Assembly (NCBI RefSeq): GCF_000382425.1
Contig: NZ_KB908291.1
Location: 496,001-560,000 of the forward strand
DNA: 64,000 nt
Direction: 5' to 3'
Source of the DNA: Empedobacter brevis NBRC 14943 = ATCC 43319
GTDB lineage: Bacteria; Bacteroidota; Bacteroidia; Flavobacteriales; Weeksellaceae
Part shown: positions 1,319 to 47,920 of the stretch, one piece after another
Numbering within the stretch: position 1 is the first letter of the stretch
Layout: each line of letters starts with the position of its first letter
Translations under genes and position numbers: made by a program
The notes under the pieces: model-generated
Told to the model about the DNA's origin: nothing
The model's input: only the letters and a program-made list of their open reading frames with translations
Database searches by the model: none

Positions 1319-1381
1319 TTTTTATCATTTAAAGGTTAGCGGTTAAAGCTAAACAACACGTTAAGCGAAAACCGTAAATCA

Positions 1382-1798: not shown

Positions 1799-1813
1799 CT
1801 TCTTTGATAAATG

Positions 1814-2971: not shown

Positions 2972-2974
2972 CTC

Positions 2975-5025: not shown

Positions 5026-5028
5026 AAA

Positions 5029-5316: not shown

Positions 5317-5320
5317 CTTT

Positions 5321-6286: not shown

Positions 6287-6308
6287 TTTTAAATGTTTTT
6301 AAAGTTGA

Positions 6309-7391: not shown

Positions 7392-7392
7392 A

Positions 7393-7965: not shown

Positions 7966-7971
7966 ATGTAT

Positions 7972-9309: not shown

Positions 9310-9340
9310 AATTTTTGCAGATTTTGATTTTTGATACTAA

Positions 9341-9348
9341 CAAATTTA
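9341..9348 (-). promoter_or_regulatory. -7 box of the paa operon promoter
   Basis: On the minus strand the bases read TAAATTTG, an exact match to the Bacteroidota -7 consensus TAnnTTTG, 31 bases upstream of the paaK ATG. The sequence 19 bases further upstream is TTAG, close to the TTTG -33 element, and it is part of the 9366-9383 palindrome. A protein bound there would block the promoter. Confidence 0.6.
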
Positions 9349-9360
9349 ATCAAAAAAACT

Positions 9361-9388
9361 AAAAAAACTAACGTTTGTTAGTTTTTTT
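9361..9388. promoter_or_regulatory. candidate TetR operator in front of paaK, also a terminator-like hairpin
   Basis: The core 9366-9383 reads AACTAACAAACGTTAGTT on the minus strand, with half-sites AACTAA/TTAGTT separated by six bases. The arms extend to 11 perfect bases (9361-9371 and 9378-9388) because of flanking A and T runs. It overlaps the -33 position of the paaK promoter. The same core, identical at 15 of 18 positions, lies at 12794-12811. The A/T-flanked hairpin could also end transcripts of the E1 gene upstream, so the two roles are not exclusive. Confidence 0.6.
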
Positions 9389-9425
9389 AGTGTAAAAAGT
9401 ACAATTGTTTATAACAACATAACAT

Positions 9426-11480
9426 TTAATAACTTAAAATACTATTAATCAAAGTGCTTAACTTTTTTGGATTAGGTAACATTTCTGTTTCTAAAATTGA
9501 ATTTAATGGTATTGCCGGCATATCTTGTGCACCCAATACACGAACCGGAGCATCTAAAAATTCAAAACACTCTTCATTAATTAAACCTGCAACACTTTGT
9601 GCAAAAGAGTTTTGCTTTGCTTCTTCAGTCAATACAATACATCGATTGTGTTTTTTTACACTATTAAAAATAGTTTCTTCATCTAATGGCACCAATGTTC
9701 TCAAATCAATAATTTCGACTTGATTCGGAAAGTCTTTTGCTGCTTGTTTGGCCCAATAAACACCCATGCCATAGGTAATTATCGTTACAGTATTATGACT
9801 TTGAGAGGATTCAGTCATTAAAACTTCACGTGCTTTCCCAAAAGGTAATACATAATCTTCATCCGGCTCTACTGTTGCCGCTTCTTCTGTTCCTTTTATT
9901 TTACTCCAATACAACCCTTTGTGTTCTAACATGACCACTGGATTGGGATCATAATAAGCCGCTTTCATCAACCCTTTCAAATCTGCTCCTGTAGATGGAT
10001 AAGCAATTTTAATACCTTTGATATTAGTTAAAACACTTTCTACCGAACTCGAATGATAAGGACCTCCGCTTCCATACGCACCAATTGGCACACGCAAAAT
10101 CATTGAAACCGGCCATTTACCATTTGATAAATAATTGGAACGTGCAACTTCAGTAAAAAGCTGGTTAAGACCAGGCCAAATATAATCAGCAAACTGTACC
10201 TCAACAATAGGCTTTAAACCAACAGCTGACATCCCAACCGTAGAACCAATGATAAAAGCTTCTTGAATTGGTGTATTGAATACACGGTTTTTTCCATACT
10301 GTTTGGCTAAAGTTGCTGCTTCTCTAAAAACGCCTCCTAAACGCAATCCAACATCTTGCCCATACAATAAAGCTTCCGGATGTTCTGCCATCAGTTCGCG
10401 AATAGCGAAAAGCGCTGAATCTACCATTACCGTTTTTTCTTTACCTTCCGGCGAGCGATTACCTCTTTCCTCTGTAATTGGTGTTGGAGCAAAAACATGC
10501 GTATACAAATCTTCCGGTCGAGGGTCTTCAGCTTTTAACGCTTCTTGATATTCAGTCTGAACTTGTTCTTTTATATTATTTTCAATTTCGATCAACTCAT
10601 TTTCATTGAATCCTTCATGTAACAATGTAAGTTTTAATTTATCGTAAGGATCTCTTGTTTGCGCCTCTTCCAAATCATCACGGTACCATTCTTTACGAAC
10701 TCCAGATGTATGATGGTTTAATAAAGGAACTTTGGCATGCACTAAAATTGGGCGACGCTCTGTTCTAATAATTTCTATTGCTTGCTGAATTGTTTCATAA
10801 GAAGCTAAGAAGTCTGTACCATCTACCTGAAATACCTCTAAACCATTGAAACCTTTAGCATAATGTGCAATATCCTGTGCACGTATTTCATCAGCCGAAG
10901 CAGAAATATCCCATTCATTATCTTGAACCAGATATAAAATTGGCAATTGTTTCAAAGCTGCCATCTGAAAAGCTTCTGCCACTTCTCCTTCTGTACAAGA
11001 CGCATCTCCCAAAGAACAAACCGCTATTGGTTTAATTTCTTCTTGACACAATCCCTCTAATTCTTTGTACTGCATTCCCATCGCAATTCCTGTTGTCGGA
11101 ATAGCCTGCATTCCTGTTGCACTACTTTGATGTGGAATTTTAGGCATATTTTCACGACGTAAACTCGGATGAGAATAATAGGTTCTTCCTCCTGAAAAAA
11201 TATCATCGCGTTTCGCTAATAATTGTAACATCAATTCATAAGGCGTCACACCAATTGATAATAACATGGCATCATCCCGATAATAAGCACTCAAATAATC
11301 CTGAGGCAATAATTGTAAACCTGTCGCTATTTGGATTGCTTCATGTCCGCGTGAAGTTGCGTGAACATATTTGTTTGTTATCGCTTTGTTTTCTTCGTAT
11401 AATTCGGTCAAAGCCTTTGCTGTAACCAGTAATTTATATGCTTGTTTAAGTAAAGTTGTAGTTGATATAATAGTTTCCAT
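9426..11480 (-). CDS. 2-oxoacid dehydrogenase E1 component, fused alpha and beta subunits
   Basis: A 684-residue fusion of E1-alpha (about 1-330) and E1-beta (about 350-684). The thiamine-diphosphate motif begins at GDAS (158-161) and ends with the conserved N188 in LVQDNEW. The beta part carries LYGQDVGLRLGGVFR and EVQFADYIWPGLNQL. It decarboxylates 2-oxo acids, most likely the branched-chain ones, and passes the acyl group to the E2 lipoyl arm. The fusion is common in Bacteroidota and not an error. The E2 gene lies 5 bases upstream on the same transcript; no E3 is in the window. Aromatic 2-oxo acids are a possible substrate given the neighbours. Confidence 0.85.
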   Translation of the reverse strand: METIISTTTLLKQAYKLLVTAKALTELYEENKAITNKYVHATSRGHEAIQIATGLQLLPQDYLSAYYRDDAMLLSIGVTPYELMLQLLAKRDDIFSGGRTYYSHPSLRRENMPKIPHQSSATGMQAIPTTGIAMGMQYKELEGLCQEEIKPIAVCSLGDASCTEGEVAEAFQMAALKQLPILYLVQDNEWDISASADEIRAQDIAHYAKGFNGLEVFQVDGTDFLASYETIQQAIEIIRTERRPILVHAKVPLLNHHTSGVRKEWYRDDLEEAQTRDPYDKLKLTLLHEGFNENELIEIENNIKEQVQTEYQEALKAEDPRPEDLYTHVFAPTPITEERGNRSPEGKEKTVMVDSALFAIRELMAEHPEALLYGQDVGLRLGGVFREAATLAKQYGKNRVFNTPIQEAFIIGSTVGMSAVGLKPIVEVQFADYIWPGLNQLFTEVARSNYLSNGKWPVSMILRVPIGAYGSGGPYHSSSVESVLTNIKGIKIAYPSTGADLKGLMKAAYYDPNPVVMLEHKGLYWSKIKGTEEAATVEPDEDYVLPFGKAREVLMTESSQSHNTVTIITYGMGVYWAKQAAKDFPNQVEIIDLRTLVPLDEETIFNSVKKHNRCIVLTEEAKQNSFAQSVAGLINEECFEFLDAPVRVLGAQDMPAIPLNSILETEMLPNPKKLSTLINSILSY

Positions 11481-11485
11481 TCTGA

Positions 11486-12745
11486 TTAAATTTGTGTATT
11501 AACATCCCAATTCTCCATATAATCTGAAATTCGTTTCAAGAATACTCCTCCCAACGACCCATCTATCACGCGATGATCAAACGAAAGCGATAAATACATA
11601 AATTGTCTTGCAACAATAATATCTCCAAATTCAGTCTCTAAAACAGCCGGTTTTTTCTTGATTACACCAGTCGCAAGAATTGCAACTTCAGGCTGATTGA
11701 TAATTGGTGTTCCCATCAGGTTTCCAAAAGTTCCAACATTACTTATTGTAAATGTTCCTCCTTTCACATCGTCAGGTAAAAGCTTATTTCTACGAGCTTT
11801 GTCTACAATTGAATTAACATTTTTCGCTAATCCTTCCAAATTCAATTCATTTGCTTGATGGATCACAGGAACAATCAAATTATTGTTAGGTAAAGCTGTT
11901 GCAATTCCAATATTGATTTCGTTGTGTTTTATAATTTTTGTTTCTGTTTCGTCTACTGAAACATTCATCATCGGAAAATCTTTGATTGCACGAACAACAC
12001 AGTCTACAATCAAAGGTGTAAACGTTAATTTCTGTTTGTACTTTGCTTCAAAAGCAACTTTATTTTCTTCGCGCCATTTTACAAAATTTGTCACATCAGG
12101 TTCTACATAAGCTGTCACATGAGGTGAAGTTTGTTTACTTTTCTTCATGTGCTTCGAAATCATCTGACGCATTTTATCCATCTCAATAATTTCATCTTTA
12201 GCACCAAAAGAAGAACTTAAAATCACATTGTTTTCACTTAAAGTATCACTTGAATTATTAGCTTTAAAAGGTTTATTTTGAATATAATTCAAAACATCAT
12301 TTTTTGAAATTCTTCCATCACGCCCAGAGCCTTTTATTTGCAAAACATCATTTGTTTGAAGATTCTCTTTCTGAATAATACTTTTTACCAAAGGCGATAA
12401 AAATTGATTCGTATCATTTGAATGTATGGTTTGCGAAGTGGAAATAGTTTCAATCGTTTTCTCTTCTATTCTTTCGTTTTTTTGTAATGATTGATTCTGG
12501 TCTTCTGAAGTTTCAATAATTGCAAAAACTTCCCCTATTTTAATCTCATCTCCTTCATTAAATCTAAACTCTATAATTTTCCCAGCTTTTGTTGAAGGCA
12601 CATCAGAATCTACTTTATCCGTAGAAACTTCGGCTATTACCTCATCCTCTTGAATGAAATCACCAATATTCTTTGTGAAACGAACAAGCTGTACAGACTC
12701 TACACTCTCTCCCAGTTTCGGGATCGTTAGTTCTATATTCTTCAT
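11486..12745 (-). CDS. 2-oxoacid dehydrogenase E2 component (dihydrolipoamide acyltransferase)
   Basis: A 419-residue E2 protein with three domains in order. A single lipoyl domain (about 1-78) has the lipoylated lysine K44 in STDKVDSD. A peripheral subunit-binding domain lies near residues 112-150 (SPLVKSIIQKENL and GSGRDGRISKNDVL). The catalytic acyltransferase domain ends with SFDHRVIDG, where H391 is the active-site histidine. It moves the acyl group from E1 to CoA. It leads the two-gene operon, and an 18-bp palindrome shared with paaK lies 49 bases before its ATG. Confidence 0.87.
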   Translation of the reverse strand: MKNIELTIPKLGESVESVQLVRFTKNIGDFIQEDEVIAEVSTDKVDSDVPSTKAGKIIEFRFNEGDEIKIGEVFAIIETSEDQNQSLQKNERIEEKTIETISTSQTIHSNDTNQFLSPLVKSIIQKENLQTNDVLQIKGSGRDGRISKNDVLNYIQNKPFKANNSSDTLSENNVILSSSFGAKDEIIEMDKMRQMISKHMKKSKQTSPHVTAYVEPDVTNFVKWREENKVAFEAKYKQKLTFTPLIVDCVVRAIKDFPMMNVSVDETETKIIKHNEINIGIATALPNNNLIVPVIHQANELNLEGLAKNVNSIVDKARRNKLLPDDVKGGTFTISNVGTFGNLMGTPIINQPEVAILATGVIKKKPAVLETEFGDIIVARQFMYLSLSFDHRVIDGSLGGVFLKRISDYMENWDVNTQI

Positions 12746-12770
12746 TTTATTTTTTTGCAGTTTTATGCGT

Positions 12771-12811
12771 TGAAGATAATGATTTTTTATAAAAACTAAT
12801 GAATGTTAGTT
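12771..12811 (-). promoter_or_regulatory. promoter region and candidate operator of the E2-E1 operon
   Basis: The palindrome at 12794-12811 reads AACTAACATTCATTAGTT on the minus strand, the same half-sites and six-base spacing as the copy in front of paaK. A weaker -7-like sequence TATCTTCA lies at 12771-12778, and the TTAG of the palindrome is 17 bases upstream of it, at the -33 position. The geometry is close to that at paaK. The -7 box is imperfect, so the promoter itself is tentative while the palindrome is clear. Confidence 0.55.
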
Positions 12812-12879
12812 AAATTTAATTGAAACTTTCCCCTTTTTATAGTGTATATGGTACATTTAAATTTCAATCGATTTATACT

Positions 12880-13683
12880 CTAAAACCTCATCACTAAACC
12901 AATTCCTGCCTGATTATTTTGAAATGCAGGAAAAATTATAGTTGATACCTTAGATTCTTTATTTTTAGGAGAAAACCAATTGTTAATTGTTGGAAACAAC
13001 CAGTAAGCTAACTCTGTAGACAAAATCCCAATTCCTGCTCCTGCAACTACATCTCCTACCCAATGGCGATTATTTATGACACGATAAACACCTGTAAAAG
13101 CTGCTAAAGGATATCCTGCCAAACTCAACCAGATATTAGTATCCTGATATTCACGAAACATAAATTGTGCTGTAGAAAAAGCATTTGCTGTATGTCCGGA
13201 AGGAAAAGAAAGATGATTCGTTCCATCCGGTCTTTCTTCATTCACCGTATGTTTCAATCCCATAACCAAACCTGTATTGATAATTTGTGAAGTGGCGAAA
13301 ATAATTGTTCGATCTTTAAAATTATGTTTTCCTTGAATACCAGCTAGATTCAATCCATAAACTGCAACTGCAGGTAAGTATTGTGTATAATTATCAAATC
13401 GATTTCCTTTTGTATTGTCTTCTAATAGTTCGTTTTGAGTTGATTTATTCAAATTATCTAAAGCAGGAATTGCTAAACTAAGACTTCCGTAAGTAATTAA
13501 ACTCGCAGGAACAATCAGTTTTTTTGCATTAAAATGATAAACTTTATCTTCTGAATTGAATGTTTGTTGTGGAATAGGATCAACTTCTGCTTTTTGAATT
13601 GTATCTTGTGTATTTACTGTCATCGAAAAAATGGTAAGTAGGACACAATTAATTAATGTCATTTTCGATTTTGTTTGGTTCAT
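12880..13683 (-). CDS. PAP2-family phosphatase, secreted or membrane anchored
   Basis: A PAP2 (type 2 phosphatidic acid phosphatase) protein of about 267 residues. The three motifs are KHTVNEERP (K-x6-RP), PSGH and YRVINNRHWVGD (R-x5-H-x3-D; the usual serine before the arginine is a tyrosine). The phosphatase site therefore looks intact. A signal-peptide-like stretch TLINCVLLTIFSMTV is near the start. The frame is open further, to 13725, but that ATG lies between the -33 and -7 elements of the promoter at 13705-13734, so the start at 13683 (MNQTKSK) is preferred. Possible roles are lipid A or undecaprenyl-pyrophosphate dephosphorylation. Confidence 0.85.
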   Translation of the reverse strand: MNQTKSKMTLINCVLLTIFSMTVNTQDTIQKAEVDPIPQQTFNSEDKVYHFNAKKLIVPASLITYGSLSLAIPALDNLNKSTQNELLEDNTKGNRFDNYTQYLPAVAVYGLNLAGIQGKHNFKDRTIIFATSQIINTGLVMGLKHTVNEERPDGTNHLSFPSGHTANAFSTAQFMFREYQDTNIWLSLAGYPLAAFTGVYRVINNRHWVGDVVAGAGIGILSTELAYWLFPTINNWFSPKNKESKVSTIIFPAFQNNQAGIGLVMRF

Positions 13684-13704
13684 TTCATTATACATTTTGT
13701 TAAA

Positions 13705-13734
13705 CAAATGTATTTGAAACCTCATTATTCCAAA
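13705..13734 (-). promoter_or_regulatory. promoter of the PAP2 gene
   Basis: The minus strand carries TTTG (13731-13734), 18 bases, then TACATTTG (13705-13712), a full match to the Bacteroidota promoter pattern. It places transcription start near 13700 and rules out the most upstream ATG of the PAP2 frame. Confidence 0.7.
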
Positions 13735-13751
13735 CTTAAGATTTGATTAAG

Positions 13752-13787
13752 AAAAAGCCGAAGAAATACTTTATTTATTCGGCTTTA
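13752..13787 (-). terminator. terminator after hpd
   Basis: Perfect 9-bp arms AAAGCCGAA/TTCGGCTTT (13754-13762 and 13778-13786) with an A-tract on the plus strand that gives a U-tract in the hpd transcript. It lies 47 bases past the hpd stop and closes the hmgA-hpd unit. Confidence 0.75.
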
Positions 13788-13833
13788 AATATGATTTAGT
13801 TATTGTCAATTTATTAAGAAAAGTTCAAAAAAA

Positions 13834-14964
13834 TTATAAATTCCCTCTACGTTCTTGTTCTCTTTCCAAAGCTTCGAATAAAGCTTTGAAGTTTCCTGCT
13901 CCAAACGATTGAGCTCCGTGACGTTCAATAATTTCGTAAAATAATGTTGGTCTGTCTTCAACAGGTTTTGTAAAGATTTGCAATAAATAACCTTCTTCAT
14001 CACAATCCACTAAAATACCAAGACTTTGCAGCTTTTTAATATCTTCATCAATTTCTCCTACACGCTCCGGAATCATGTCATAATAAGCTTCCGGCGGTGC
14101 AGATAAAAATTCGACTCCACGAGATTTAAGCTCAGTAACAGTTTTAACAATATCTTTTGTGGCCACTGCAATATGCTGAACCCCTTCTCCTTCATAAAAA
14201 TCTAAGTATTCTTCTACTTGCGATTTTTTCTTTCCTTCTGCAGGTTCATTAATTGGAAATTTCGAATAACCATTTCCATTACTCATTACTTTTGACATTA
14301 ATGCTGAATATTCTGTATTGATTTGTTTATCATCAAAGGACAAAATATTTACAAACCCCATCACATCCTGGTACCATTGTACGCAATCATTCATACGATT
14401 CCAACCAACATTTCCTACACAATGATCAACATATAACAAACCACAATCAGTAGGTTGATAAGCTGATTCTGATTTCACATACCCCGGCATAAAAGGTCCA
14501 TTGTAATTTTTACGTTCAATAAACATATGAATTGTTTCTCCATACGTATAAATTCCAGACATTTTTACTTCTCCAAATTCATCTGTAATTGTAGTTGGCT
14601 CCATATAAGGTTTTCCACCACGTTTTGTTGTTTGCTCAAAAGCATCGTACGCATCATCAACCCAAAGCGCCAAAATCTTCACTCCGTCTCCATGCTTCAT
14701 CGCATGCTGACATATTGGTGAATCTGATTTTAACCCTGATGTTAAAACTAAACGAATTTTACCTTGTTGTAAAACATAAGATGCTCTATCTCTTACTCCG
14801 GTTTCTGGACCTGCATAGGCAACTTCTTGAAAACCGAATGCTGTTTTGTAATAATGTGCAGATTGTTTTGCATTTCCTACATAAAACTCGATATAATCTG
14901 TTCCATTAATTGGAAGAAAGTCTTGCGCTAAAGCTATTTTCTCTGCAAATGTTTGTGTACTCAT
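13834..14964 (-). CDS. hpd: 4-hydroxyphenylpyruvate dioxygenase
   Basis: A 376-residue HPPD. Two VOC-fold halves are visible (N-terminal GTDYIEFYVGNAKQSAHYY; C-terminal YVDHCVGNVGWNRMNDCV). The Fe(II) ligands are the His in LLYVDHCVG, the His in GVQHIAVATKD and the Glu in LFYEIIERHG. The C-terminal QSFGAGNFKALFEALEREQ is a strong family mark. It converts 4-hydroxyphenylpyruvate to homogentisate. A further ATG at 14991 adds nine basic residues; the start at 14964 (MSTQTF) fits the family better. It follows hmgA on the same strand, so product and next enzyme are encoded together. Confidence 0.93.
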   Translation of the reverse strand: MSTQTFAEKIALAQDFLPINGTDYIEFYVGNAKQSAHYYKTAFGFQEVAYAGPETGVRDRASYVLQQGKIRLVLTSGLKSDSPICQHAMKHGDGVKILALWVDDAYDAFEQTTKRGGKPYMEPTTITDEFGEVKMSGIYTYGETIHMFIERKNYNGPFMPGYVKSESAYQPTDCGLLYVDHCVGNVGWNRMNDCVQWYQDVMGFVNILSFDDKQINTEYSALMSKVMSNGNGYSKFPINEPAEGKKKSQVEEYLDFYEGEGVQHIAVATKDIVKTVTELKSRGVEFLSAPPEAYYDMIPERVGEIDEDIKKLQSLGILVDCDEEGYLLQIFTKPVEDRPTLFYEIIERHGAQSFGAGNFKALFEALEREQERRGNL

Positions 14965-15040
14965 TTTCTTGTGTTTATTTTTATGTATCATTATTTCGAT
15001 TTGATATTCGAAATTTATTTTTTATCCCTGTCATCTAGTT

Positions 15041-15060
15041 TGATCATCTGACGATGATCA
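15041..15060. promoter_or_regulatory. palindrome between hmgA and hpd
   Basis: Perfect 8-bp arms TGATCATC/GATGATCA with a four-base centre TGAC, ending one base before the hmgA stop codon. Mid-way between two genes of one unit, it may be an operator for hpd, an mRNA processing hairpin or a partial terminator. A TAAATTTC box (minus strand, 15010-15017) lies just downstream and could be the -7 element of a separate hpd promoter. Confidence 0.4.
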
Positions 15061-16218
15061 TTAATAAAGCCAAGATTTATAATAATCCGGATCTTCTATT
15101 TCTAAAGCTTGTTCTGTTAACATTAAAGGTCTGAAAGGATCAATCATCACAGCCAACTCATGTGTTTCTTTTGCTCCAATCGACTTTTCTACCGTTCCCG
15201 GATGCGGACCATGCGGAATACCCGCCGGATGTAATGTAATTTGACCTTTTTCAACTGATTTTCTTGACATAAAATCGCCATCGACATAATATAAAATTTC
15301 GTCAGAATCTACATTACTATGATTATAAGGAGCCGGAATAGCATTTGGATGATAGTCGAACAAACGAGGAACGAAACTACAAATAACAAATCCTGCACCT
15401 TCAAATGTCTGATGAACCGGTGGTGGTTGATGAATACGCCCTGTTATCGGCTCGAAATTATGAATTGAAAAGGCCCAAGGATAATGATAACCATCCCATC
15501 CAACAAAATCGAAAGGATGAGTCCCGTAGACATAGGGATATATTAAGCCTTCTTTTTTAATCATAATCTTAAAATCTCCATGTTCATCATGGGTTTCAAG
15601 ATTTTGCGGACGCTTTATATCTCGTTCACAAAATGGAGAATGTTCCATTAATTGACCAAAATGATTACGGTAACGACGAGGTGTTTCTACCGGACTAAAT
15701 GACTCTGTGATGAACAAACGATTATTCTCGTCATTGAAATGAAGTTGATAAATTATTCCACGTGGAATGACTAAATAATCTCCATATTCAAACTCGATTT
15801 GTCCATAACCTGTTTTCAAAACCCCAGAACCTTCATGAATAAAAATCACTTCATCCGCTTGAGAATTTTTGTAAAAATAATCGGTCATCGACTGTTGAGG
15901 AGCAGCCAACGAGATGTGCAAATCATTATTCACTAAAACAGGAACACGTGATTCTAAATAATCTTTTGTTGGTTTTACTTTAAACCCTTTTAAAGACGTG
16001 TGCTTCAAATGCTTTGCGCGAGCTATTTTAGGTTCAACCGAATAAGGTTCATTAATTTCTTTTACCAAAGTTGGTGGATAACAATGATAAACATTAGAAT
16101 ACGTACTCGAAAATCCATGCGTAGAAACCAGCTCTTCTGCATATAATTCTCCATTTGGTTTTCGGAATACCGTATGTCGCTTTTGTGGGAATTCTCCCAA
16201 ATGATGATAAAGTGGCAT
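15061..16218 (-). CDS. hmgA: homogentisate 1,2-dioxygenase
   Basis: A 385-residue cupin-fold homogentisate dioxygenase of the shorter type common in Bacteroidota. Family marks are FIHEGSGVLKTGYG in the N-terminal half and, in the C-terminal half, DSDEILYYVDGDF and HPAGIPHGPHPG followed by KETHELAVMIDPF, which hold the Fe(II)-binding His and Glu residues. It opens the ring of homogentisate to maleylacetoacetate in tyrosine degradation. It is upstream of hpd; fumarylacetoacetase and the isomerase are not in the window. Its leader is long, about 185 bases from the predicted promoter. Confidence 0.92.
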   Translation of the reverse strand: MPLYHHLGEFPQKRHTVFRKPNGELYAEELVSTHGFSSTYSNVYHCYPPTLVKEINEPYSVEPKIARAKHLKHTSLKGFKVKPTKDYLESRVPVLVNNDLHISLAAPQQSMTDYFYKNSQADEVIFIHEGSGVLKTGYGQIEFEYGDYLVIPRGIIYQLHFNDENNRLFITESFSPVETPRRYRNHFGQLMEHSPFCERDIKRPQNLETHDEHGDFKIMIKKEGLIYPYVYGTHPFDFVGWDGYHYPWAFSIHNFEPITGRIHQPPPVHQTFEGAGFVICSFVPRLFDYHPNAIPAPYNHSNVDSDEILYYVDGDFMSRKSVEKGQITLHPAGIPHGPHPGTVEKSIGAKETHELAVMIDPFRPLMLTEQALEIEDPDYYKSWLY

Positions 16219-38066: not shown

Positions 38067-38095
38067 AAAATCTCCTCTTTTTGGGAGATTTTTTT
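38067..38095. terminator. bidirectional terminator
   Basis: 9-bp arms AAAATCTCC/GGAGATTTT (38067-38075 and 38084-38092) between convergent genes, with a T-run to 38095 that meets the stop codon of the LytTR gene. Confidence 0.8.
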
Positions 38096-38855
38096 AGTTA
38101 TTCATCCAGTCTATCCAATTATTTATCTGCGTTTTACTAATAAATATTGGCTGTTCTGTCTCTGGTTTTGGTTGAAGGTAAATTTCAATTTTTTGACTAG
38201 AATGTTTTATAATTTCTGATATTGAATCAATGTGAACAATAAATTTCCGATTGATTTTGAAGAATATTGTTGAATCTAATTTATTAATAATATCCTTTAT
38301 TGTATCATCATAGATATAAGTTTGAGCATCTTTTGTTTTCATAAAAAGATGTTTACCGGAAGCAAAGAAATAAGCAATTTCTTGTTCTTCTATTGAACGC
38401 AGTTTATTCCCATTGTTTACGAGAAAACGATGCGTTATTTCTGAAGAAGAATTCTCTAAAACTGTGATTGATTTTAAAGTTGGAACAATATCAAAACTTG
38501 TTCGAATTGAATTGAATTTTTGCAAAGCCAGATTTAGCTCCTCTATTTCAAAAGGTTTTAAAATATAATCAATCGTGAAATGTTTAAAAACCTTCATTGC
38601 ATATTCATCATAAGCCGTAATAAAAATAATTGGAGTAAAAATTTCAACTTTTTGAAAGATTTCAAAACTTTTTCCATCTCCAAGGTGGATATCCATAAAA
38701 ATAAGATCTACAACATTTTCCTCAAAAAAAGCTATCGCTTGTTTTGTAGAGCGTAAAATTGTAATAGATGAAATAGGGATAATAGACTGTTCTTCTACTA
38801 AATTTTTCAGATAGGTTACCGCTAATAATTCATCTTCTACAATTGCCACTTTCAT
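38094..38855 (-). CDS. LytTR-type response regulator
   Basis: A 253-residue two-domain regulator. The receiver domain (about 1-115) has the acidic pair in IVEDE, the phospho-acceptor D55 in IFMDIHLGD, T80 in FITAYDEYAM and K100 in YILKPFE. The C-terminal LytTR DNA-binding domain (about 150-250) has the usual KINRKFIVHIDSI segment. It most likely receives phosphate from the LytS-type kinase at 46277, with the SusCD-protease genes between them, and binds direct repeats such as those at 46221-46279. A hairpin separates it from susD. Confidence 0.92.
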   Translation of the reverse strand: MKVAIVEDELLAVTYLKNLVEEQSIIPISSITILRSTKQAIAFFEENVVDLIFMDIHLGDGKSFEIFQKVEIFTPIIFITAYDEYAMKVFKHFTIDYILKPFEIEELNLALQKFNSIRTSFDIVPTLKSITVLENSSSEITHRFLVNNGNKLRSIEEQEIAYFFASGKHLFMKTKDAQTYIYDDTIKDIINKLDSTIFFKINRKFIVHIDSISEIIKHSSQKIEIYLQPKPETEQPIFISKTQINNWIDWMNN

Positions 38856-38870
38856 GAATGTAAAAGTAAT

Positions 38871-38904
38871 AAAAAAACCGTCTAAATGGAGATAAAGACG
38901 GTTT
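38871..38904 (-). terminator. terminator after susD
   Basis: 9-bp arms AAACCGTCT/AGACGGTTT (38875-38883 and 38896-38904), then a T-run on the minus strand. It sits between susD and the regulator gene and may leave the regulator at a lower level by partial read-through. Confidence 0.75.
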
Positions 38905-38912
38905 AAAAAATG

Positions 38913-40232
38913 TTATAAATGAGGATTATTGAGCTTAGCTGTTTGTGGAATTTCTATTGTATAACGGACATCATTTTGCTGTAATATATATTCTTTACCC
39001 GCAACCTGATGTTTAATTTCTTTTTGATCTGCACGACGTAAATCATACCAACGCTGACCTTCTAATGCAAACTCTCTGAAACGTTCTTCTAAAATAAATT
39101 TCATGAATTGATCAGAATTCATTTTCGAAAGTTCAGTTTGTACTTTTGCAAATCCATCTGGTGTATATCTATTCTGTAGAACTGAGCTCAAAGTCGCCTT
39201 TGCTTCAGTTAGTTTATTCAATTTCAAATAAGATTCAGCTTTGATAAAATACAATTCTGCAACACGAAAAGATGTTTTAAATTCTGAATTTCCTCCTTTG
39301 ATGATTTTATATTTTGAATCATCTTTCTCAAAATAAAGAGGAAAACGCAAATCATTTTCCATATCATAACTCTCCAGCAAATCTGTTGAAGCATACGACA
39401 TATACTGAACAGCATTATTCAATGTGTTGTCCAAAGCTAAAATAGATTCAGCAGATGTATAATGATTTGGAACTAATTTTGTCGTATTCAAATTCACTAA
39501 TTCACCTTTGATTTTCAATGCTTGGTCAGAGAAATCAATTGCTTTCTGCCATTCGTTTTTGTACAGCGCTATTCTTGCTTCGAAAGCATCTAATGCTACT
39601 TTTGAAAATCTGTAATTTAATCCGGCAAGTTGTTGGTTCATTTTCATCAATTTAGAAGCTTCTTCTACATCTGACTGAATATGATTGTATACTTCTTGTA
39701 CCGAAGAAGGTTTCAACGTTGCTTCCAGATCAACTTTTAGATTTAAAGGAACTCCTCTGTCTGTATTTGCTGTAGACAAGTTGTATGGTTGACCATATAA
39801 ATTCAATAAATCAAAATAAGCATAAGCTCGCAAAGCATATGCTTCTGCCAGTAATTGATCTTTTTCAACAGAATTTTCCATTGTTTTTTGTCCCTCATTG
39901 ATGATTTGATTGGTATAAAAAATCACGGTATAAAAACCAACCCAAGGAAATTGAATTGACATCTGATCTGGATTTGTATCTTTCCACATCGCAATTTCTC
40001 GGTACGAAATAAAATCACTTGTATTTTCATTTAACGTAACCTCATCAGTACGCAAAGCCGTTAAAGACTTATGGGTAGGATATTTTGAATAGGCATTCGT
40101 TAATACCATGCGGTAATCTTCCACTGTTTTGGGTATTATTTTTCCGTCTGGTTCAATATCCAAATAATTGTCGCAACTAACCGCTGTAAAACTAACTGCA
40201 ACTATGCTTAATAAAAAAAATATTTTTTTCAT
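38913..40232 (-). CDS. SusD/RagB-family outer-membrane lipoprotein
   Basis: A 439-residue SusD homologue with a lipoprotein signal ending in VSC (lipidated Cys near residue 20), then the typical DNYLDIEPDGKIIPKTVEDYR. TPR-like helices are indicated by AYALRAYAYFDLLNLYG and the C-terminal LEERFREFALEGQRWYDLRR is a strong family mark. It caps the SusC channel and binds substrate outside the cell. It is shorter than polysaccharide-type SusD proteins, like RagB-type members. It follows susC by 13 bases. Confidence 0.93.
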   Translation of the reverse strand: MKKIFFLLSIVAVSFTAVSCDNYLDIEPDGKIIPKTVEDYRMVLTNAYSKYPTHKSLTALRTDEVTLNENTSDFISYREIAMWKDTNPDQMSIQFPWVGFYTVIFYTNQIINEGQKTMENSVEKDQLLAEAYALRAYAYFDLLNLYGQPYNLSTANTDRGVPLNLKVDLEATLKPSSVQEVYNHIQSDVEEASKLMKMNQQLAGLNYRFSKVALDAFEARIALYKNEWQKAIDFSDQALKIKGELVNLNTTKLVPNHYTSAESILALDNTLNNAVQYMSYASTDLLESYDMENDLRFPLYFEKDDSKYKIIKGGNSEFKTSFRVAELYFIKAESYLKLNKLTEAKATLSSVLQNRYTPDGFAKVQTELSKMNSDQFMKFILEERFREFALEGQRWYDLRRADQKEIKHQVAGKEYILQQNDVRYTIEIPQTAKLNNPHL

Positions 40233-40245
40233 TTGATTTTAAAAT

Positions 40246-43200
40246 TTAGAAAGAAAGGTTCACTCCTGCTGTTACTGATTTTGCAATTGGCTGTGCATAG
40301 ATATTCCCATATGTTTCCGGATCAAAATATCCATCGTATCCATTGCTGAATACAAATAAATTACGACCTTCTAAGCTAAAACGAGCACTTTTAAATCCGA
40401 TAACTTCAGAATATTTCTTTGGCAATGTATACCCCACACGAATACTACTAATACGTAAATAGCTAATTTCTTTGGCCCAGATGTCTAACAAATTATACGC
40501 ATTTGCGTTATTCCCTGCAAACCATTTGTTCGCCATCCAACTGTCATTATCTCCCATAATAGGACTTGTAATTCCCGGAAGTGTTGTCCCTGCCTGAAAA
40601 ATATCTTGTGTATAATTACGTCCGGGATCTAATTCCATTCCTCTATAAGAAGGTGATCTCATCACTGTCTGTTTAAGATTGAATGCAGCTGAAATTGTTA
40701 AATCAAAATTGTGAATTTTGAAATTATTGATGATTCCTCCGGTAAATTTAGGATCACGATCACCGATGTATGTAAATAAATTACGTTTTTCTTCACTTGT
40801 CAATTTAGAATCAACAAACTCTCCCGGTAAAAAGTCTTCGTATAAATCAAATAATGCAAAGAACTCTTTTGCAGAAACTTTTTCATCCCCTTTCCAAAAC
40901 ATTGGATTTCCATATTCATCAAATCCGGCAGTCTTTAATGCAAAGATTGCATTAACAGGCAATCCTTCTCGCGATGGCACCAAGCTATTCTCGCGCTGTT
41001 GTTCTTTTAAGACTTTACTTTTATTATGAGCGAAGTTAATTGTTGTCGACCATTTGAAATTTTGAGTATCAATATTACGGGTTGTAAGCGCAATCTCAAA
41101 ACCTTTGTTTGTCAATTCACCCCAATTCACCATTGTATATTCAAAACCTGCTTCTAAAGGAGTTTCCCGCATACTAATCATGTCAGTCCCTTTACGGTGA
41201 TATACATCTACTGCAAGATTAATACGGTTTTTGAAAAGCCCTAAATCTAAACCTAAATTTGTATTTGTTGTTTTTTCCCAACGTAACAAATCATTCGGCA
41301 AGTTTATCGCATTGATAATATCTTCATTCCCTCCGGGTAAAATCGTCACATCACTGTATTCACCGATAAAGAAAGGCGACGTATTACGATCAATGTTTCC
41401 TTGTAAACCATAAGAAGCACGTAGACGAAGGTTAGAAATAAAATCTACATTTTCCATAAACGCTTCTCTCGAAACCAACCAAGATGCTGAAATCGCCCAA
41501 ATTGGTAAATATTTGTATTTTTTATTTACACCAAATAAATTTGTCCCATCGTAGCGAACACTTCCAAAAAGCGTATACTTTTTGTCTAATGTATACGAAG
41601 CTGTCGCAAACGTAGAAACATACGCATTTTCTTCTGTCGGCATATCTTTATACGTTTCGTAACGTTTGTCTGAAGCAAAATTCGAATTAGGAAAAACGAT
41701 TGGTGTTCCGGTTTTTGTTATTTTATTGTAACCAAAAGCACGTGTTAATGTTGTTTCATTTTGTGTATGACGAATTTCCGTTCCGGCCATCAAATCAATC
41801 TCATGGCGGTTATTGATGGTTGTACTGTACGTTCCCTGAAGTTTCCAATTGTATTGAAAATATTCGTTATCCCAATTTTGTTTTATTCCTCCATCAGGTA
41901 AAAAGTACAAATACTGACCAGATTTATAATAACGCGTTCCTTCTTTCATTTTACGCGTAAAATAAGTCTCCTTCTCAGCGAATTTTTCTGTTTTATTGTT
42001 ATCGTACTGAATCCCTAGCTGCGATGTTAATTTCAAACCTTTTGCCAATTGATAATTAAGATCAATGATCCCTTTTATCGAACGGTTTTTTAATGTATAA
42101 TTTGTGTTCTCTCTCTCTTCAATAAAATTAAACGGAATCGAGCGATCCTCATATCCATCAATATCTTGGTCATATCGATAAGAACCATCAGCATTAAATG
42201 GAGATAAATACGGATTGGCATTTCTAGAATAATTAATCGGATTGATGGCCGCATCGGCATCAGTAACAAAAGATTCTTTGTCACTAGAAGTTGCAAAAAT
42301 AGAAATCCCTACATCGAATTTATCGTTTAATTTATAATTGTTTTTTAACGTAAGATTGTAACGCTCAAAGCCTGTTCCAATTGTTGTCCCTTGCTCATCA
42401 TAGTATCCTAAAGAGAAGTAATAATCAGAACGGTCATTTCCTCCGGAAATACTCAAACCATATTGTGTGTTAATTGCATTACGATACAATAATTTACCCC
42501 AATCTGTTGTATGATTTCGTAAAGAATTAATTTGATTTTGTGTTGTAAGATCCAAAGAACTAAAACCTCCGTTTCGTAAAGCATCTACTTGACCATTCTT
42601 TTTCAAAATTCGCATCACTTCACCTTTATCTGTACGATAGGTTAAATCTGAACGACCTGCAAGCATTAATTCAAGATCAACTTTTTGAGAAGCATTCAGT
42701 AAATTCAATCGATCAAAATCCGGACGAGCAGTTACAAATGTATTCGCAGAAAAATTCACTGTCATTGCACCTTTTTTCCCACGTTTTGTTGTAATCGAAA
42801 TTACACCATTCGCCGCTCTTGCACCATAAATAGCAGTTGCAGCTGCATCTTTAAGAATCGTAATATCTTCGATATCGTTTGGATTTAATCCAGCGATAGA
42901 AAAGTTTTGTAATTGATCAATATTATCTTTATCGCTAAAATTTGGCACATCATTTCCTTCTAAAGGTAAACCATCAATTACCCATAATGGATCTTGAGGC
43001 CCCGAAAGAGAAGCCGTACCACGAATTCTAATTTTACTTGGAGAACCTGGTGCACCAGTTTCTGTTGCAACAGCTACACCAGCAATTTGTCCACTTAATA
43101 ATTGATCAACACTTGCTACACCGGCTTGTTGAATATCATCCATTTTCACAGTTGATATTGCTGATGTTAACTTCCGTTTTTCTATTTTTTGATAACCTGT

Positions 43201-43587
43201 TACAATAACTTCTTTCAAATCATTATTTTCTGGAATAGCCTGACTTGAAGTTAATTTTAAACTTACATGATACGTCGTCAAATCAGTTGAAAGTTCAATC
43301 AATTTCGAATCGTAACCTAAATAACTAATTAAAACAGATTTTGTATTTGCCGGAACTTCCAATGAAAAAAAACCATCTTCATCAGTAACAGTACCCACAG
43401 TTACACTTTCTATGATTCCTTTCTGATCTGTCTTAGTAGAAATCGATTGTGCTTCAATTTTAACAGACGCACCAGCAATTCCAACCAGTGATTTTTCATC
43501 TTGAACCGAACCTGTAATCACTCTCTTTTCTTGAGAAAACGCTATACTTGCCGCAAAAAGAGGCAAAAGAATGAGTGTCTTTTTCAT
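40246..43587 (-). CDS. SusC/RagA-family TonB-dependent outer-membrane channel
   Basis: A 1113-residue channel. After a signal peptide (KKTLILLPLFAASIAFSQ) comes a carboxypeptidase-like regulatory domain (about 22-115), a plug (about 128-270; EVIVTGYQ, VDQLLSGQIAGVAV, NGVISITTKRG) and a long beta-barrel that ends in aromatic SVTAGVNLSF. It imports bound substrate with TonB energy. It sits 9 bases after the protease and 13 before susD. RagA-type relatives import peptides; glycan uptake is not suggested, as no glycoside hydrolase is present. Confidence 0.93.
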   Translation of the reverse strand: MKKTLILLPLFAASIAFSQEKRVITGSVQDEKSLVGIAGASVKIEAQSISTKTDQKGIIESVTVGTVTDEDGFFSLEVPANTKSVLISYLGYDSKLIELSTDLTTYHVSLKLTSSQAIPENNDLKEVIVTGYQKIEKRKLTSAISTVKMDDIQQAGVASVDQLLSGQIAGVAVATETGAPGSPSKIRIRGTASLSGPQDPLWVIDGLPLEGNDVPNFSDKDNIDQLQNFSIAGLNPNDIEDITILKDAAATAIYGARAANGVISITTKRGKKGAMTVNFSANTFVTARPDFDRLNLLNASQKVDLELMLAGRSDLTYRTDKGEVMRILKKNGQVDALRNGGFSSLDLTTQNQINSLRNHTTDWGKLLYRNAINTQYGLSISGGNDRSDYYFSLGYYDEQGTTIGTGFERYNLTLKNNYKLNDKFDVGISIFATSSDKESFVTDADAAINPINYSRNANPYLSPFNADGSYRYDQDIDGYEDRSIPFNFIEERENTNYTLKNRSIKGIIDLNYQLAKGLKLTSQLGIQYDNNKTEKFAEKETYFTRKMKEGTRYYKSGQYLYFLPDGGIKQNWDNEYFQYNWKLQGTYSTTINNRHEIDLMAGTEIRHTQNETTLTRAFGYNKITKTGTPIVFPNSNFASDKRYETYKDMPTEENAYVSTFATASYTLDKKYTLFGSVRYDGTNLFGVNKKYKYLPIWAISASWLVSREAFMENVDFISNLRLRASYGLQGNIDRNTSPFFIGEYSDVTILPGGNEDIINAINLPNDLLRWEKTTNTNLGLDLGLFKNRINLAVDVYHRKGTDMISMRETPLEAGFEYTMVNWGELTNKGFEIALTTRNIDTQNFKWSTTINFAHNKSKVLKEQQRENSLVPSREGLPVNAIFALKTAGFDEYGNPMFWKGDEKVSAKEFFALFDLYEDFLPGEFVDSKLTSEEKRNLFTYIGDRDPKFTGGIINNFKIHNFDLTISAAFNLKQTVMRSPSYRGMELDPGRNYTQDIFQAGTTLPGITSPIMGDNDSWMANKWFAGNNANAYNLLDIWAKEISYLRISSIRVGYTLPKKYSEVIGFKSARFSLEGRNLFVFSNGYDGYFDPETYGNIYAQPIAKSVTAGVNLSF

Positions 43588-43596
43588 GTCTATATC

Positions 43597-46176
43597 TTAC
43601 TTTAAAGCTTCTTTAATACGAATAATTAAATCTGCGTAATGGGCTTTTGTCGCCTCATCTCCGTTATTCTTTTTCTTGTTTAATAAAGCTAACACGCGTT
43701 GTAACTCTGCTCTTTTATAGGTTGTCACTTCTGAAACCCTTTTCATCGAAGAATAGTTGATATTACGTGCCATTTTTTCTTCGTCTAAATAATTACAGAT
43801 AGTTGGTACTTGTAGATTTTGGTTAATTGTAAGTCCTGTTACAGTCGTTTTCTCAAACAATTTATTTGTTGAAACAATCAAAGCATCAACATAATTTTTT
43901 TGAGTCATTCGTTCAAGAATCGTTAAACTTGATTTCTTATCGAAAGCTACTTTTCTTACTTGATCAAATAAATTTTCAACTGTATAGATTTTATCGTTGG
44001 ATTTTAATTCCTGGTGATTTAATTCATTTTCTAGCATGCGCAACAATCGATCATCTGTAAATAAATTATAGATCAATCCATATTGCATTTCTCTTGCCAA
44101 TGTATATGGCGTTTGCTCATATGGTCCCATTGGTGAATTTTTAATCGCATAAGTTTTATCTAAAATGTCATTAAAAAATAACCATTTAGGCAAATTGATT
44201 ACATTTTCATTTAAATAATCTACTGCTTTACGCTGCATTTCAGCAGAAACTGGTTGATACGCTTTTTTATCAATACCAAAATAAGTATTGTTTAAATAGA
44301 TTCCTCCAACATTTGCTAACACATGATTTGAATACAAATCCCATTGCCCTATTGTTTGGTAATATAGTTTTCCGGTATTGATATAACTTTTACCATCTTC
44401 ATACGTCCATTTTAAAATATTCTCTGAAACACGTTTCAGATTTTTCATTCCGTATTCACTTGCTAAAACTGCATCATCTCCTAGATCTTCTGATTGAGAG
44501 CGAGGATCTATTGTATTTAAATAACTTTGTTGTTCTCCGTAGAAATACATTGGATCATCTTCGTGTTTTTCAATCATTTTACGAAGTGATGTTTTTTCTG
44601 TTGCTTGATCCGGAAACCAGCGGTATCCCCATTCAATTGCGTATTTATCATAAACACCAATTTTTGGTGTGATAGCTGTTACGCCATCTTCCGGCTGTGC
44701 AACATAATTATAACGAGCATAATCCATAATAGAAGGTGCCGTCCCTCCCATTTTAGCTGTAAACTCTTTCGAACGTAAAGATTCTACAGGATAAGAAAAA
44801 GAAGCTCCCATATTATGTTTCAATCCAAATGTATGTCCCACTTCGTGTGATGAAACAAATCGGATTGCTTCCCCCATATGTTCGTCACTGAATTTATTAC
44901 CTCTTGCTTTTGGATCAATCGGCCCAGTCTGAATACGCATCCAATCATGTAAGGACGTCATTACATTATGCCACCAAATAATATCAGCTTCCAAGATTTC
45001 TCCACTACGAGGATCCACAACAGAAGGCCCCATCGCATTTGATTTTGGAGATGCCGCATACGTAATGACAGAGTAGCGAACATCGTCAATATCAAAATCT
45101 TTATCGCTTTCAGTTGGTTCTTTTGCAATAATTGCATTTTTGAAACCAGCCTGTTCAAAAGCTATTTGCCAATCGTGCACTCCGGCAATAATCTTCTGTC
45201 TCCATTGTTTTGGAGTCGATGGATCGATGTAATAAATGATTGGCTTCTTAGGTTCTACTAATTCACCTCTCAAATATTTTTCTTTGTCCTCTTCTTTTGG
45301 TTCTAAACGCCATTTCGTAATAAAGCGTTGATCCTCCATTTTATGTTGAGCATCATTAAAAAACCAATGTTTTTCTGTGAAATATCCTACTCGGTTATCT
45401 GCAAAACGAGGTTGCATAGGTGTTTTTGATAACAAAACAATGTTACTTGTAACACCTAAGGTAACGGCTAAATCTACCCCTCCTTCATTTACACTTGTTG
45501 TCAATTGAGACTTCACGACAATGTTTTCCGGGAAAGTTTTTACGTTTTCTACATACGATAGATTTGCCTTTACCGACCCTCCTAAACCTACATTTGTTAA
45601 TACGTCATTAAAACTTTTTTGATTTCCATCAAAAATCTTATTCACTTTAATAGCTACTGCTGTAGAATCGCTATTTTGAGCTTCTATATCAAAAACTTCT
45701 ATAATTGACTCTGAAAAATTATCTTTTACAGAAGCTGTGATTGCATCATCTTTAGGTGAAGAAACTTGTGGAACGACTGTTTTCACCCACACTTTCTTCG
45801 CTACTTTATCATGATAGAAAGAAATTACTTTATTTTCATAATTCATTCCTTTGTTCAAGCCTGCTTCATTGACTTGCATTGGAACTTGTGATAATTTATT
45901 GACAACTAAAAATTGACGTCCAAATAAACTATCAGGAATTTCGAAGTAGATATCTGTTTTAACTTGAATCGTATTGAATAAACCTTTTTTATACGTTCCT
46001 TTCTTTACTAATTCATCGATTTTTTTAACTTTCGTTACTATCGAATCTTTTTTCTCCGTTTTCTCCTTTTCAGTTTTTTTATCTTCTTTTTTTTGTCCAT
46101 AAACAACTGCCGAAGACATTGCTAAACCTAAGTATAGTGCTAATTTATAATTCTTTCTTTCCTTATTCTGGCTCAT
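43597..46176 (-). CDS. secreted zinc-dependent metalloprotease (DUF5117/DUF4953 type)
   Basis: An 859-residue protein with a signal peptide at about 10-27 (KLALYLGLAMSSAVVYGQ). The metzincin zinc site HEVGHTFGLKH is at 444-454 with the catalytic glutamate E445, and a Met-turn SIMDY is at 482-486. The N-terminal region matches the DUF5118/DUF5117 part and the C-terminal region the DUF4953 part of this Bacteroidota family. It probably cuts protein or peptide in the periplasm or outside. It is the first gene after the promoter with three direct repeats. Confidence 0.9.
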   Translation of the reverse strand: MSQNKERKNYKLALYLGLAMSSAVVYGQKKEDKKTEKEKTEKKDSIVTKVKKIDELVKKGTYKKGLFNTIQVKTDIYFEIPDSLFGRQFLVVNKLSQVPMQVNEAGLNKGMNYENKVISFYHDKVAKKVWVKTVVPQVSSPKDDAITASVKDNFSESIIEVFDIEAQNSDSTAVAIKVNKIFDGNQKSFNDVLTNVGLGGSVKANLSYVENVKTFPENIVVKSQLTTSVNEGGVDLAVTLGVTSNIVLLSKTPMQPRFADNRVGYFTEKHWFFNDAQHKMEDQRFITKWRLEPKEEDKEKYLRGELVEPKKPIIYYIDPSTPKQWRQKIIAGVHDWQIAFEQAGFKNAIIAKEPTESDKDFDIDDVRYSVITYAASPKSNAMGPSVVDPRSGEILEADIIWWHNVMTSLHDWMRIQTGPIDPKARGNKFSDEHMGEAIRFVSSHEVGHTFGLKHNMGASFSYPVESLRSKEFTAKMGGTAPSIMDYARYNYVAQPEDGVTAITPKIGVYDKYAIEWGYRWFPDQATEKTSLRKMIEKHEDDPMYFYGEQQSYLNTIDPRSQSEDLGDDAVLASEYGMKNLKRVSENILKWTYEDGKSYINTGKLYYQTIGQWDLYSNHVLANVGGIYLNNTYFGIDKKAYQPVSAEMQRKAVDYLNENVINLPKWLFFNDILDKTYAIKNSPMGPYEQTPYTLAREMQYGLIYNLFTDDRLLRMLENELNHQELKSNDKIYTVENLFDQVRKVAFDKKSSLTILERMTQKNYVDALIVSTNKLFEKTTVTGLTINQNLQVPTICNYLDEEKMARNINYSSMKRVSEVTTYKRAELQRVLALLNKKKNNGDEATKAHYADLIIRIKEALK

Positions 46177-46206
46177 TCAAACGTTAAATTATCATTAATT
46201 ATGGCA

Positions 46207-46279
46207 TAAACTTAATAGCAGTTTTGGGATAATAATAGTTTTTGGGAGTGAATGGTTTGTTTTTGGGAGTGAGTGGTTA
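46207..46279 (-). promoter_or_regulatory. protease-SusCD promoter region with three direct repeats
   Basis: On the minus strand three direct copies of CCCAAAA occur (their GGG on the plus strand begins at 46226, 46244 and 46265), spaced 18 and 21 bases apart. The two upstream copies are longer and near-identical (plus strand TTTTTGGGAGTGAATGG and TTTTTGGGAGTGAGTGG). A -7-like box TAAGTTTA lies at 46207-46214. Repeats on one face of the helix upstream of a promoter are the known form of LytTR binding sites. No such repeats are seen elsewhere in the locus. Confidence 0.55.
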
Positions 46280-47920
46280 ATTTGGATTGATATAGGGCAA
46301 ATAGCAAATGAATTCGCCGCCTTCTACTATTGTTTTGAAATTATTTATTCGATAAAAATTATATATTTTTTGCAAATATTTCAATCCAAATTTTTCATTT
46401 TCTAAAACGATTTCTTTTTTTTGAAATGTATTTTTAACAATAATCAAATTTGATTTGACTAAAATTTCAATCGTTAACGGCTGATCAATTGTCGCGATAT
46501 TATGTTTAATTGCATTTTCCACTACAATCTGTAATGCCAAATACGGAATATTTTTCTCCAGGCTTTTAGAATCTTCAATTTTCAAGTTAAAAATTAATTC
46601 TTCCGAAAACCTGCTTTTTTGCAAATCCATATACTGTTCTATAAAAGCCAACTCTTGTTTTATGACAACAACATTCTCTTTTGGAGGAACAATCAAATAA
46701 CGGTAAATTTTAGAAAGGTTCATCGTGAATTTTTGAGCATTTTCCTGATTCAGTCCAATTAACATATACAATGAATTAAGGGAATTGAATAAAAAATGTG
46801 GATTAATTTGATTTTTTAACTGTTGTAACTGTGTAAGTGTATTTGCATTTTTAATTTTTTCATTCTCAATCAGCAATCTATTCTTTTCTTCAATAATTGC
46901 GGCCTTTTCTTGATAGGTTTTAGACGTTATTTTATTGAATAACAAAAAGATAACAATAATCAAAAAAACTGTCCCCAGAAAAATAAATCCCACATAAAAT
47001 TTTGTACGTTCTACTTTTTCATCTATCATATAGCTAAGATGATTCACGACAATATAACCCTCAAAATTTTTTGTATTCAATGGTTTTATAAACCGTTTAA
47101 TTTCGGTATTCTTTATAAATTCTGACGAAGCATCATTCAATGTATAACGATCCTGCGGAAAATTAGATTTGATTGTACTTGTTATTGTGTCATTTGCTTT
47201 GATGTCAGTAAAATCAAAAATATTTTTCCCAATAAATTTTTCATTTGGATGTGTAATACAAATCCCTGCTTTATTAAAAACATATACATAATTGGTAGAA
47301 GTAACATCAACAGTTGTAAAAAAGTTATATAAATCGTACAAATTAATTGTCGAACCATAATACATTGTTTTTCCTTTAGATAAGTTGATAGAATCATAAT
47401 TCACCCAATACAATGAATCCTTATAATTCATCAAAAAATTATTAATCTCTTGGTCTTTCGTTCTATAAACAGCTTTATATTGTTTGAAATTTGGTTGATT
47501 AACGATCTTCGCAAGAGTCTCGGTATCTGTTAGTTTATCTTTTCCTGATTGAAGAATAGCAAACCAATCGTTGCGAATTAATTTACGATTCGAGTTTAAT
47601 TCATTTAAAACAATAAAATGATCAACATAATTTTTTTCATTACTTTTTTGAACTACTTTTTTAAGTACTTCTTGGTATTCTTCTATATTTTTAAATTCAA
47701 ATTCTATTGCTTCATATTTTCTTAGAAATCCTTTTACAACAAAATCATCATTACTTTTCTGGCTTTCATTGTTGATTAAAAAACTCAATACAACAAGTGC
47801 TATCACAGCAATAATACTAACAATTAGTGCGATAACATAAATTGATTTGTTGGATAAACTTACAAGAAAGCGAGTGGACAAAATATTTTTTTCCAAAATT
47901 AAGTCAAGTAACTTAATCAA
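46277..47920 (-). CDS. LytS-type sensor histidine kinase with an extracytoplasmic Cache-like domain
   Basis: A 547-residue kinase. Membrane helices are at about 27-50 and 308-329; between them is a roughly 255-residue outside domain with YVYVFNKAGICITHPNEKFIG (211 onward), the pattern of a Cache small-ligand sensor. The cytoplasmic His_kinase domain has the phospho-acceptor H375 in NPHFLFNSLNSL and the N-box VVENAIKHN. ATP-lid glycines appear reduced (GLKYLQKIY remains), as in some LytS proteins. Its partner is the LytTR regulator at 38094. It ends 100 bases before the protease. Confidence 0.9.
   Translation of the reverse strand: MIKLLDLILEKNILSTRFLVSLSNKSIYVIALIVSIIAVIALVVLSFLINNESQKSNDDFVVKGFLRKYEAIEFEFKNIEEYQEVLKKVVQKSNEKNYVDHFIVLNELNSNRKLIRNDWFAILQSGKDKLTDTETLAKIVNQPNFKQYKAVYRTKDQEINNFLMNYKDSLYWVNYDSINLSKGKTMYYGSTINLYDLYNFFTTVDVTSTNYVYVFNKAGICITHPNEKFIGKNIFDFTDIKANDTITSTIKSNFPQDRYTLNDASSEFIKNTEIKRFIKPLNTKNFEGYIVVNHLSYMIDEKVERTKFYVGFIFLGTVFLIIVIFLLFNKITSKTYQEKAAIIEEKNRLLIENEKIKNANTLTQLQQLKNQINPHFLFNSLNSLYMLIGLNQENAQKFTMNLSKIYRYLIVPPKENVVVIKQELAFIEQYMDLQKSRFSEELIFNLKIEDSKSLEKNIPYLALQIVVENAIKHNIATIDQPLTIEILVKSNLIIVKNTFQKKEIVLENEKFGLKYLQKIYNFYRINNFKTIVEGGEFICYLPYINPN

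Follow-up and report, generated by a model that had tools for sequence, protein, structure and literature searches.

Five minus-strand genes in the 64-kb window (the whole stretch of DNA analyzed here), running from position 47896 or 47920 to 38094, encode a LytS-type sensor kinase, a met-zincin protease, SusC, SusD, and a LytTR response regulator. They probably make up a ligand-inducible, self-contained uptake unit in which the LytTR regulator activates protease, SusC, and SusD and a protein fragment or oligopeptide is imported. A preliminary description of this DNA had already given the five-gene order on one strand and the family of each product; all genes lie where it had placed them, and Pfam and TIGRFAM matches uphold the kinase, protease, SusC, SusD, and LytTR regulator assignments. 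It had missed two direct repeats, CCNYTCACTCY, exactly 21 bp apart between the kinase and protease genes.

Bacteroidota import large nutrients mainly through the products of SusCD operons, whose known regulators are hybrid two-component proteins, ECF sigma/anti-sigma pairs, and SusR. Every part of the unit belongs to a known family, and the LytS/LytTR control arrangement appears to be the new element. The preliminary description had called such control much less usual; consistent with this, the literature searched, whose coverage mostly excluded subscription journals, contained no paper on LytTR control of SusCD and no account of a SusCD operon that LytS/LytTR controls through a defined operator. 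A coevolution paper on F. johnsoniae mentions LytTR and SusD mutations and no such locus.

Anatomy of the locus

The kinase gene (46277 to 47896, minus strand, as are all features below) encodes a transmembrane helix, an outside domain, a second transmembrane helix, and a His_kinase domain. A start at 47920, as initially proposed, is possible, but the TTG at 47896 is more likely, being the one used by relatives. As expected of a LytS-type kinase, the protein matches PF06580 (His_kinase; 83.5 bits, cut-off 25.2) and carries the motif NPHFLFNSLN in the His_kinase domain and an N-box, ENAIKHN, with H367 and N461 invariant in aligned relatives. Matches of the outside domain (approximately residues 45 to 300) to Cache profiles were weak; its structural model (pLDDT 75.6) has a dCache_1 fold, with tandem PAS-like units and a long N-terminal helix, which agrees with the Cache-like domain of about 255 residues reported before. 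The nearest structures to the sensor model are the amino-acid chemoreceptors Mlp37 and PscC (Z 14.9 over about 200 residues). The dCache_1AA motif includes an Arg two residues ahead of a conserved Trp-Tyr, R126 in PctA (PMC10104139). An Arg was not seen at that place in 16 aligned sensors, provided that the comparison is correctly anchored on the W-F/Y pair; amino acids are therefore not indicated as the ligand. A cysteine of the sensor domain, C213 in a G-x-C-I-x-H-P stretch, is invariant in all 16 aligned kinases, distant ones included.

The protease gene (43597 to 46176) follows after 100 bp, and the remaining intergenic gaps are 9, 13, and 57 bp. Its product has a DUF5118-DUF5117-DUF4953 architecture, an intact zinc site (HEVGHTFGLKH), and a Met-turn (SIMDY), which place it among the metzincins; HExxHxxGxxH and SIMDY are kept in every protease copy listed. 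The description of this protein as secreted stands in part: a Sec-type leader is present and there is no lipobox, so that its location may be periplasmic or secreted. NCBIfam holds no model for either the protease or the kinase, and no paper naming DUF5117, DUF4953, or DUF5118 came up in our literature search. SusC (40246 to 43587), a SusC/RagA-type TonB-dependent outer-membrane transporter, scores 660 bits against TIGR04056 (cut-off 368) and also matches TIGR04057. Adjoining this barrel, as in SusCD pairs generally, is the SusD-like surface lipoprotein lid (38913 to 40232), which matches SusD-like_3 and SusD_RagB above cut-off and has an invariant lipobox Cys20. The last gene of the unit (38094 to 38855) encodes the regulator; its Response_reg and LytTR domains both match Pfam above cut-off, and the residues associated with phosphorylation, D55, T80, and K100, are invariant in relatives.

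Like a polysaccharide utilization locus, the unit clusters a sensor, SusC, SusD, and a degradative enzyme; unlike one, it has a protease in place of glycan enzymes and LytS/LytTR in place of the usual regulators. None of the five genes encodes a CAZyme; once sensor, regulator, and transporter are set aside, the DUF4953 protease is all that remains. Scanning the window for Rfam families and tRNAs gave no matches. Elsewhere in the window, two adjacent minus-strand open reading frames of equal length (385 aa; 13834 to 14991 and 15061 to 16218) may be a duplication.

Conservation of the five-gene unit

Conservation was surveyed in 148 Weeksellaceae genomes and, at the level of the order Flavobacteriales, by profile search of 395 genomes. 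Relatives of the kinase that are full length through the sensor domain occur in 19 of the 148 genomes, the window's included, with one further decayed copy; the remaining kinase matches in this survey are to the kinase domain alone. Clade-A proteases (at least 78% identity) occur in the same genomes, and one additional clade-A contig (G093) stops after SusD. On this short contig of a fragmented genome (L066, 1 to 7042) the protease lies within a 2,347-aa open frame, either a fusion or an assembly artefact. The order kinase-protease-SusC-SusD-regulator on a single strand is kept in all 18 other complete Weeksellaceae loci (L047 to L064), one of which (L051) has a frameshift that splits the SusD gene. 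Twelve further genomes of the window's family and 17 from a second family came out of the 395-genome search. The same order was read in the 15 strong-match loci of the second family, which belong to a genus that we label Flavobacterium-like, by inference, and in 3 of the added Weeksellaceae loci, giving 36 of 36 other complete loci read. Retention of the order in relatives, on which the preliminary description had made its reading depend, is thus observed, while neighboring genes outside the unit vary between loci.

Pairwise distances of the five genes correlate at 0.93 to 0.97 across 39 loci. In G083 (L065), the regulator frame is still full length, whereas the protease has been lost, only a remnant of SusC is left, and the kinase and SusD genes are disrupted. 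In this decayed unit (9456 to 15102) a transposase-like open reading frame adjoins at 13738 to 15102. Within a single genome, the adjacency of a LytTR and a SusC gene does not significantly exceed chance, given 12 of each per 3.8 Mb. The earlier idea of one self-contained system is borne out by the kept order, the joint divergence of the parts, the joint decay of four of the five in one relative, and a dedicated operator of LytTR format; comparative sequence analysis thus supports the five genes as one system.

Operator and promoter

In the window, the repeats take the form CCACTCACTCC-N10-CCATTCACTCC (46245 to 46276) and abut the kinase stop codon. Both half-sites lie at exactly 21 bp in 19/19 aligned Weeksellaceae loci, in which the remaining gap sequence drifts, and a pair at 21 bp is present in 15/15 Flavobacterium-like loci. 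Across 39 loci neither half shows any variation in the core TCACTC, but this is by construction, as the scan required it; the CC before the core and the A-rich spacer were no requirement of the scan. A Bacteroidota -7 promoter box, TAAGTTTA (TAnnTTTR; 46207 to 46214), lies 30 bp past the operator in the window and lacks a TTG -33 element. Nearly all of the 39 loci have a TAnnTTT[GA] or TAnTTTCG box 30 to 31 bp past the operator, and most have no TTG at the -33 position.

Of 148 genomes scanned with the exact pattern, 19 have a single site each, and these are precisely the genomes that carry the system; the 129 others have none, and a reversed-pattern control over the 148 genomes gave 0 matches. 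With a single site per genome, an operator ahead of the kinase was rejected, and the window's genome has no second target with the exact pattern. Scanning 395 genomes for the core gave sites in 37/37 kinase-positive and 11/358 kinase-negative genomes (Fisher 1.5e-42, the genomes not being independent). Among the 11, G477 (L177) has a system overlooked by the kinase profile and recovered by the DNA-only scan, and two (L174, 4367 to 9001; L175, 4129 to 8764) have TonB-receptor operons with their own LytS/LytTR pair, in which the same TTCACTCC-N13-TTCACTCC box as in the window system lies 75 to 77 bp before the receptor gene. Sites in G185, G228, G442, G177, and G124 and a second G477 site inside a SusD gene were dismissed as chance or repeats, and those in G249, G339, and G403, with extra sites in G331 and G260, as simple repeats.

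Characterized LytTR operators, in which a 12-bp spacer separates 9-bp repeats, lie immediately ahead of the -35 and give positive autoregulation (PMC6193735). The two direct repeats described here have this roughly 21-bp period and lie upstream of the target promoter, and they are probably the binding site of the LytTR regulator. The kinase and regulator genes do flank the others, as the word "bracket" in the preliminary description implied; since the operator comes after the kinase gene, however, the kinase would lie outside the controlled unit and the regulator, in most copies, inside it. The LytTR Regulatory Systems (LRS; PMC6193735) likewise have direct repeats, with a period of about 21 bp, immediately ahead of the promoter and a regulator gene inside its own controlled unit, with positive feedback. 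They differ in using a membrane inhibitor and no receiver domain, whereas the window has a receiver-domain regulator with a dCache-LytS kinase and its system would control outer-membrane uptake.

Variant arrangements

The regulator lies 57 to 84 bp behind SusD in most Weeksellaceae copies, and co-transcription and feedback are therefore likely there. In several Flavobacterium-like copies the distance is 160 to 420 bp, and opposite-strand genes separate SusD from the regulator in L138 and L140; in such copies the regulator must have another promoter, and feedback through co-transcription is not universal. The order is regulator-kinase-protease-SusC-SusD in L150, where two lipoproteins follow SusD, and in L177, where the site lies between kinase and protease. 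The same order recurs in another family of the class (L200 and L201) with a variant of the operator box: TTCACTAC-type repeats keep the 21-bp spacing, and TAnTTTTG follows 30 bp past them. In L151 (G272), a lone clade-A protease with its own operator (670 to 3373) accompanies a separate, divergent regulator-kinase-SusC-SusD set (4280 to 13455) that has a site before SusC and includes two lipoproteins, one of them M48-peptidase-like; this layout looks like recombination between two related systems.

Clusters of protease, SusC, and SusD also occur without LytS/LytTR (L067 to L075, L155, L156, and L182 to L199); the module can therefore exist without the pair. Upstream of the eight such clusters examined, there was no period-21 repeat of the operator kind. 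The protease family is common phylum-wide (169/375 genomes in the protease search), and the majority of the distant copies read have no adjoining SusCD, DUF4953 proteases without SusCD being found in L078 to L085 and L157 to L166. In two Flavobacterium-like loci (L167, 8572 to 15403; L168, 4683 to 11201) a second DUF4953 protease follows a different SusC-SusD pair, with no LytS/LytTR in the stretch read.

Relationship to ButCD

The closest solved structure to the SusD model (pLDDT 90) is 8ypt_A, with 41% identity, Z 55.4, and an rmsd of 1.8 over 415 residues. Next comes 3l22 (Z 38.6); Z is about 33 for RagB, about 29 for starch SusD, and about 28 to 30 for glycan lids, which share the fold. 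The nearest solved chain to SusC is 8ypu_C (E 1e-285), from the companion entry of 8ypt, so that ButCD is the nearest solved pair for both proteins, which fall within its branch. ButCD is known here through the PDB title of 8ypt, "Cryo-EM structure of BfUbb-ButCD complex," and our literature search turned up no paper naming 8YPT or 8YPU. Among 20 ButD homologues from one Bacteroidia family, 18 are in protease-SusC-SusD clusters and 2 (L200 and L201) in the LytS/LytTR form. A DUF4953 protease precedes all 18 pair-free homologues read; these clusters differ from the window in lacking the LytS/LytTR pair and, in those examined, the repeats. BfUbb we take to be the Bacteroides fragilis ubiquitin homologue, which kills rival strains.

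The SusCD branch that binds a small protein is thus a protease-linked branch, and for this reason protein or peptide is the favored, if unproven, substrate class. Of the substrates listed in the preliminary description, peptides and proteins gain from the ButCD relationship, whereas nothing was found that favors a metal carrier. To our knowledge, the RagAB operon of Porphyromonas gingivalis has no LytTR pair or DUF4953 protease. RagAB (6sli, 6sln) is also of SusCD type, with a peptide substrate and a related SusD fold, but at 20% identity it is not the nearest relative of the window SusCD.

Proposed mechanism and alternatives

We propose that the dCache-LytS kinase, outside the regulated unit and presumably expressed at a low level, would bind a periplasmic ligand and phosphorylate the LytTR regulator, which would bind the tandem TTCACTCC half-sites at their conserved 21-bp spacing and activate the promoter with a -7 box and no -33 element, a geometry that is itself conserved. 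Protease, SusC, and SusD would be switched on, together with the regulator where it is co-transcribed, which would close a positive feedback loop. Given the sensor fold, the protease, and the relationship to ButCD, we infer that a protein fragment or oligopeptide would be captured and imported by SusD and SusC and trimmed in the periplasm by the met-zincin; the trimming product may be the kinase's signal.

Regulation could run as proposed while the module imports something else (a glycan, glycopeptide, or metal-peptide complex), with the protease acting on envelope proteins or maturing the transporter. DUF4953 proteases encoded without SusCD point to uses outside uptake, and the SusD fold is common to glycan lids. 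Against this, the ButCD lid, solved with a ubiquitin homologue, is nearest by a wide margin (Z 55.4 versus 38.6), and the unit has no carbohydrate-active enzyme; we regard a different substrate as a serious but rather unlikely alternative. That the kinase and regulator are mere neighbors, another regulator binding the repeats, seems very improbable. Binding of the regulator to the repeats is a prediction, and the transporter-protease module exists pair-free in other genera, but the site and the full-length kinase co-occur in 19/19 and 37/37 cases, the repeats have the format of LytTR-protein sites and are absent from the eight pair-free clusters checked, and the same box also stands ahead of other TonB-receptor operons with LytS/LytTR pairs of their own.

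Implications

The unit adds a putatively LytS/LytTR-controlled class of SusCD systems with a precise predicted operator, which makes its regulon, signal, and substrate directly testable. ButCD, the binder of an interbacterial protein toxin, is placed by this relationship among protease-linked importers. More speculatively, and with considerable doubt, the unit may belong to a system, widespread across the Bacteroidota, that is dedicated to sensing, importing, and digesting small folded proteins or large peptides. In such a system a Cache kinase would read the product, as imported or after digestion, while a LytTR regulator would drive its own operon; ButCD, bound by rivals' ubiquitin-like toxin, would then be one branch hijacked for attack.
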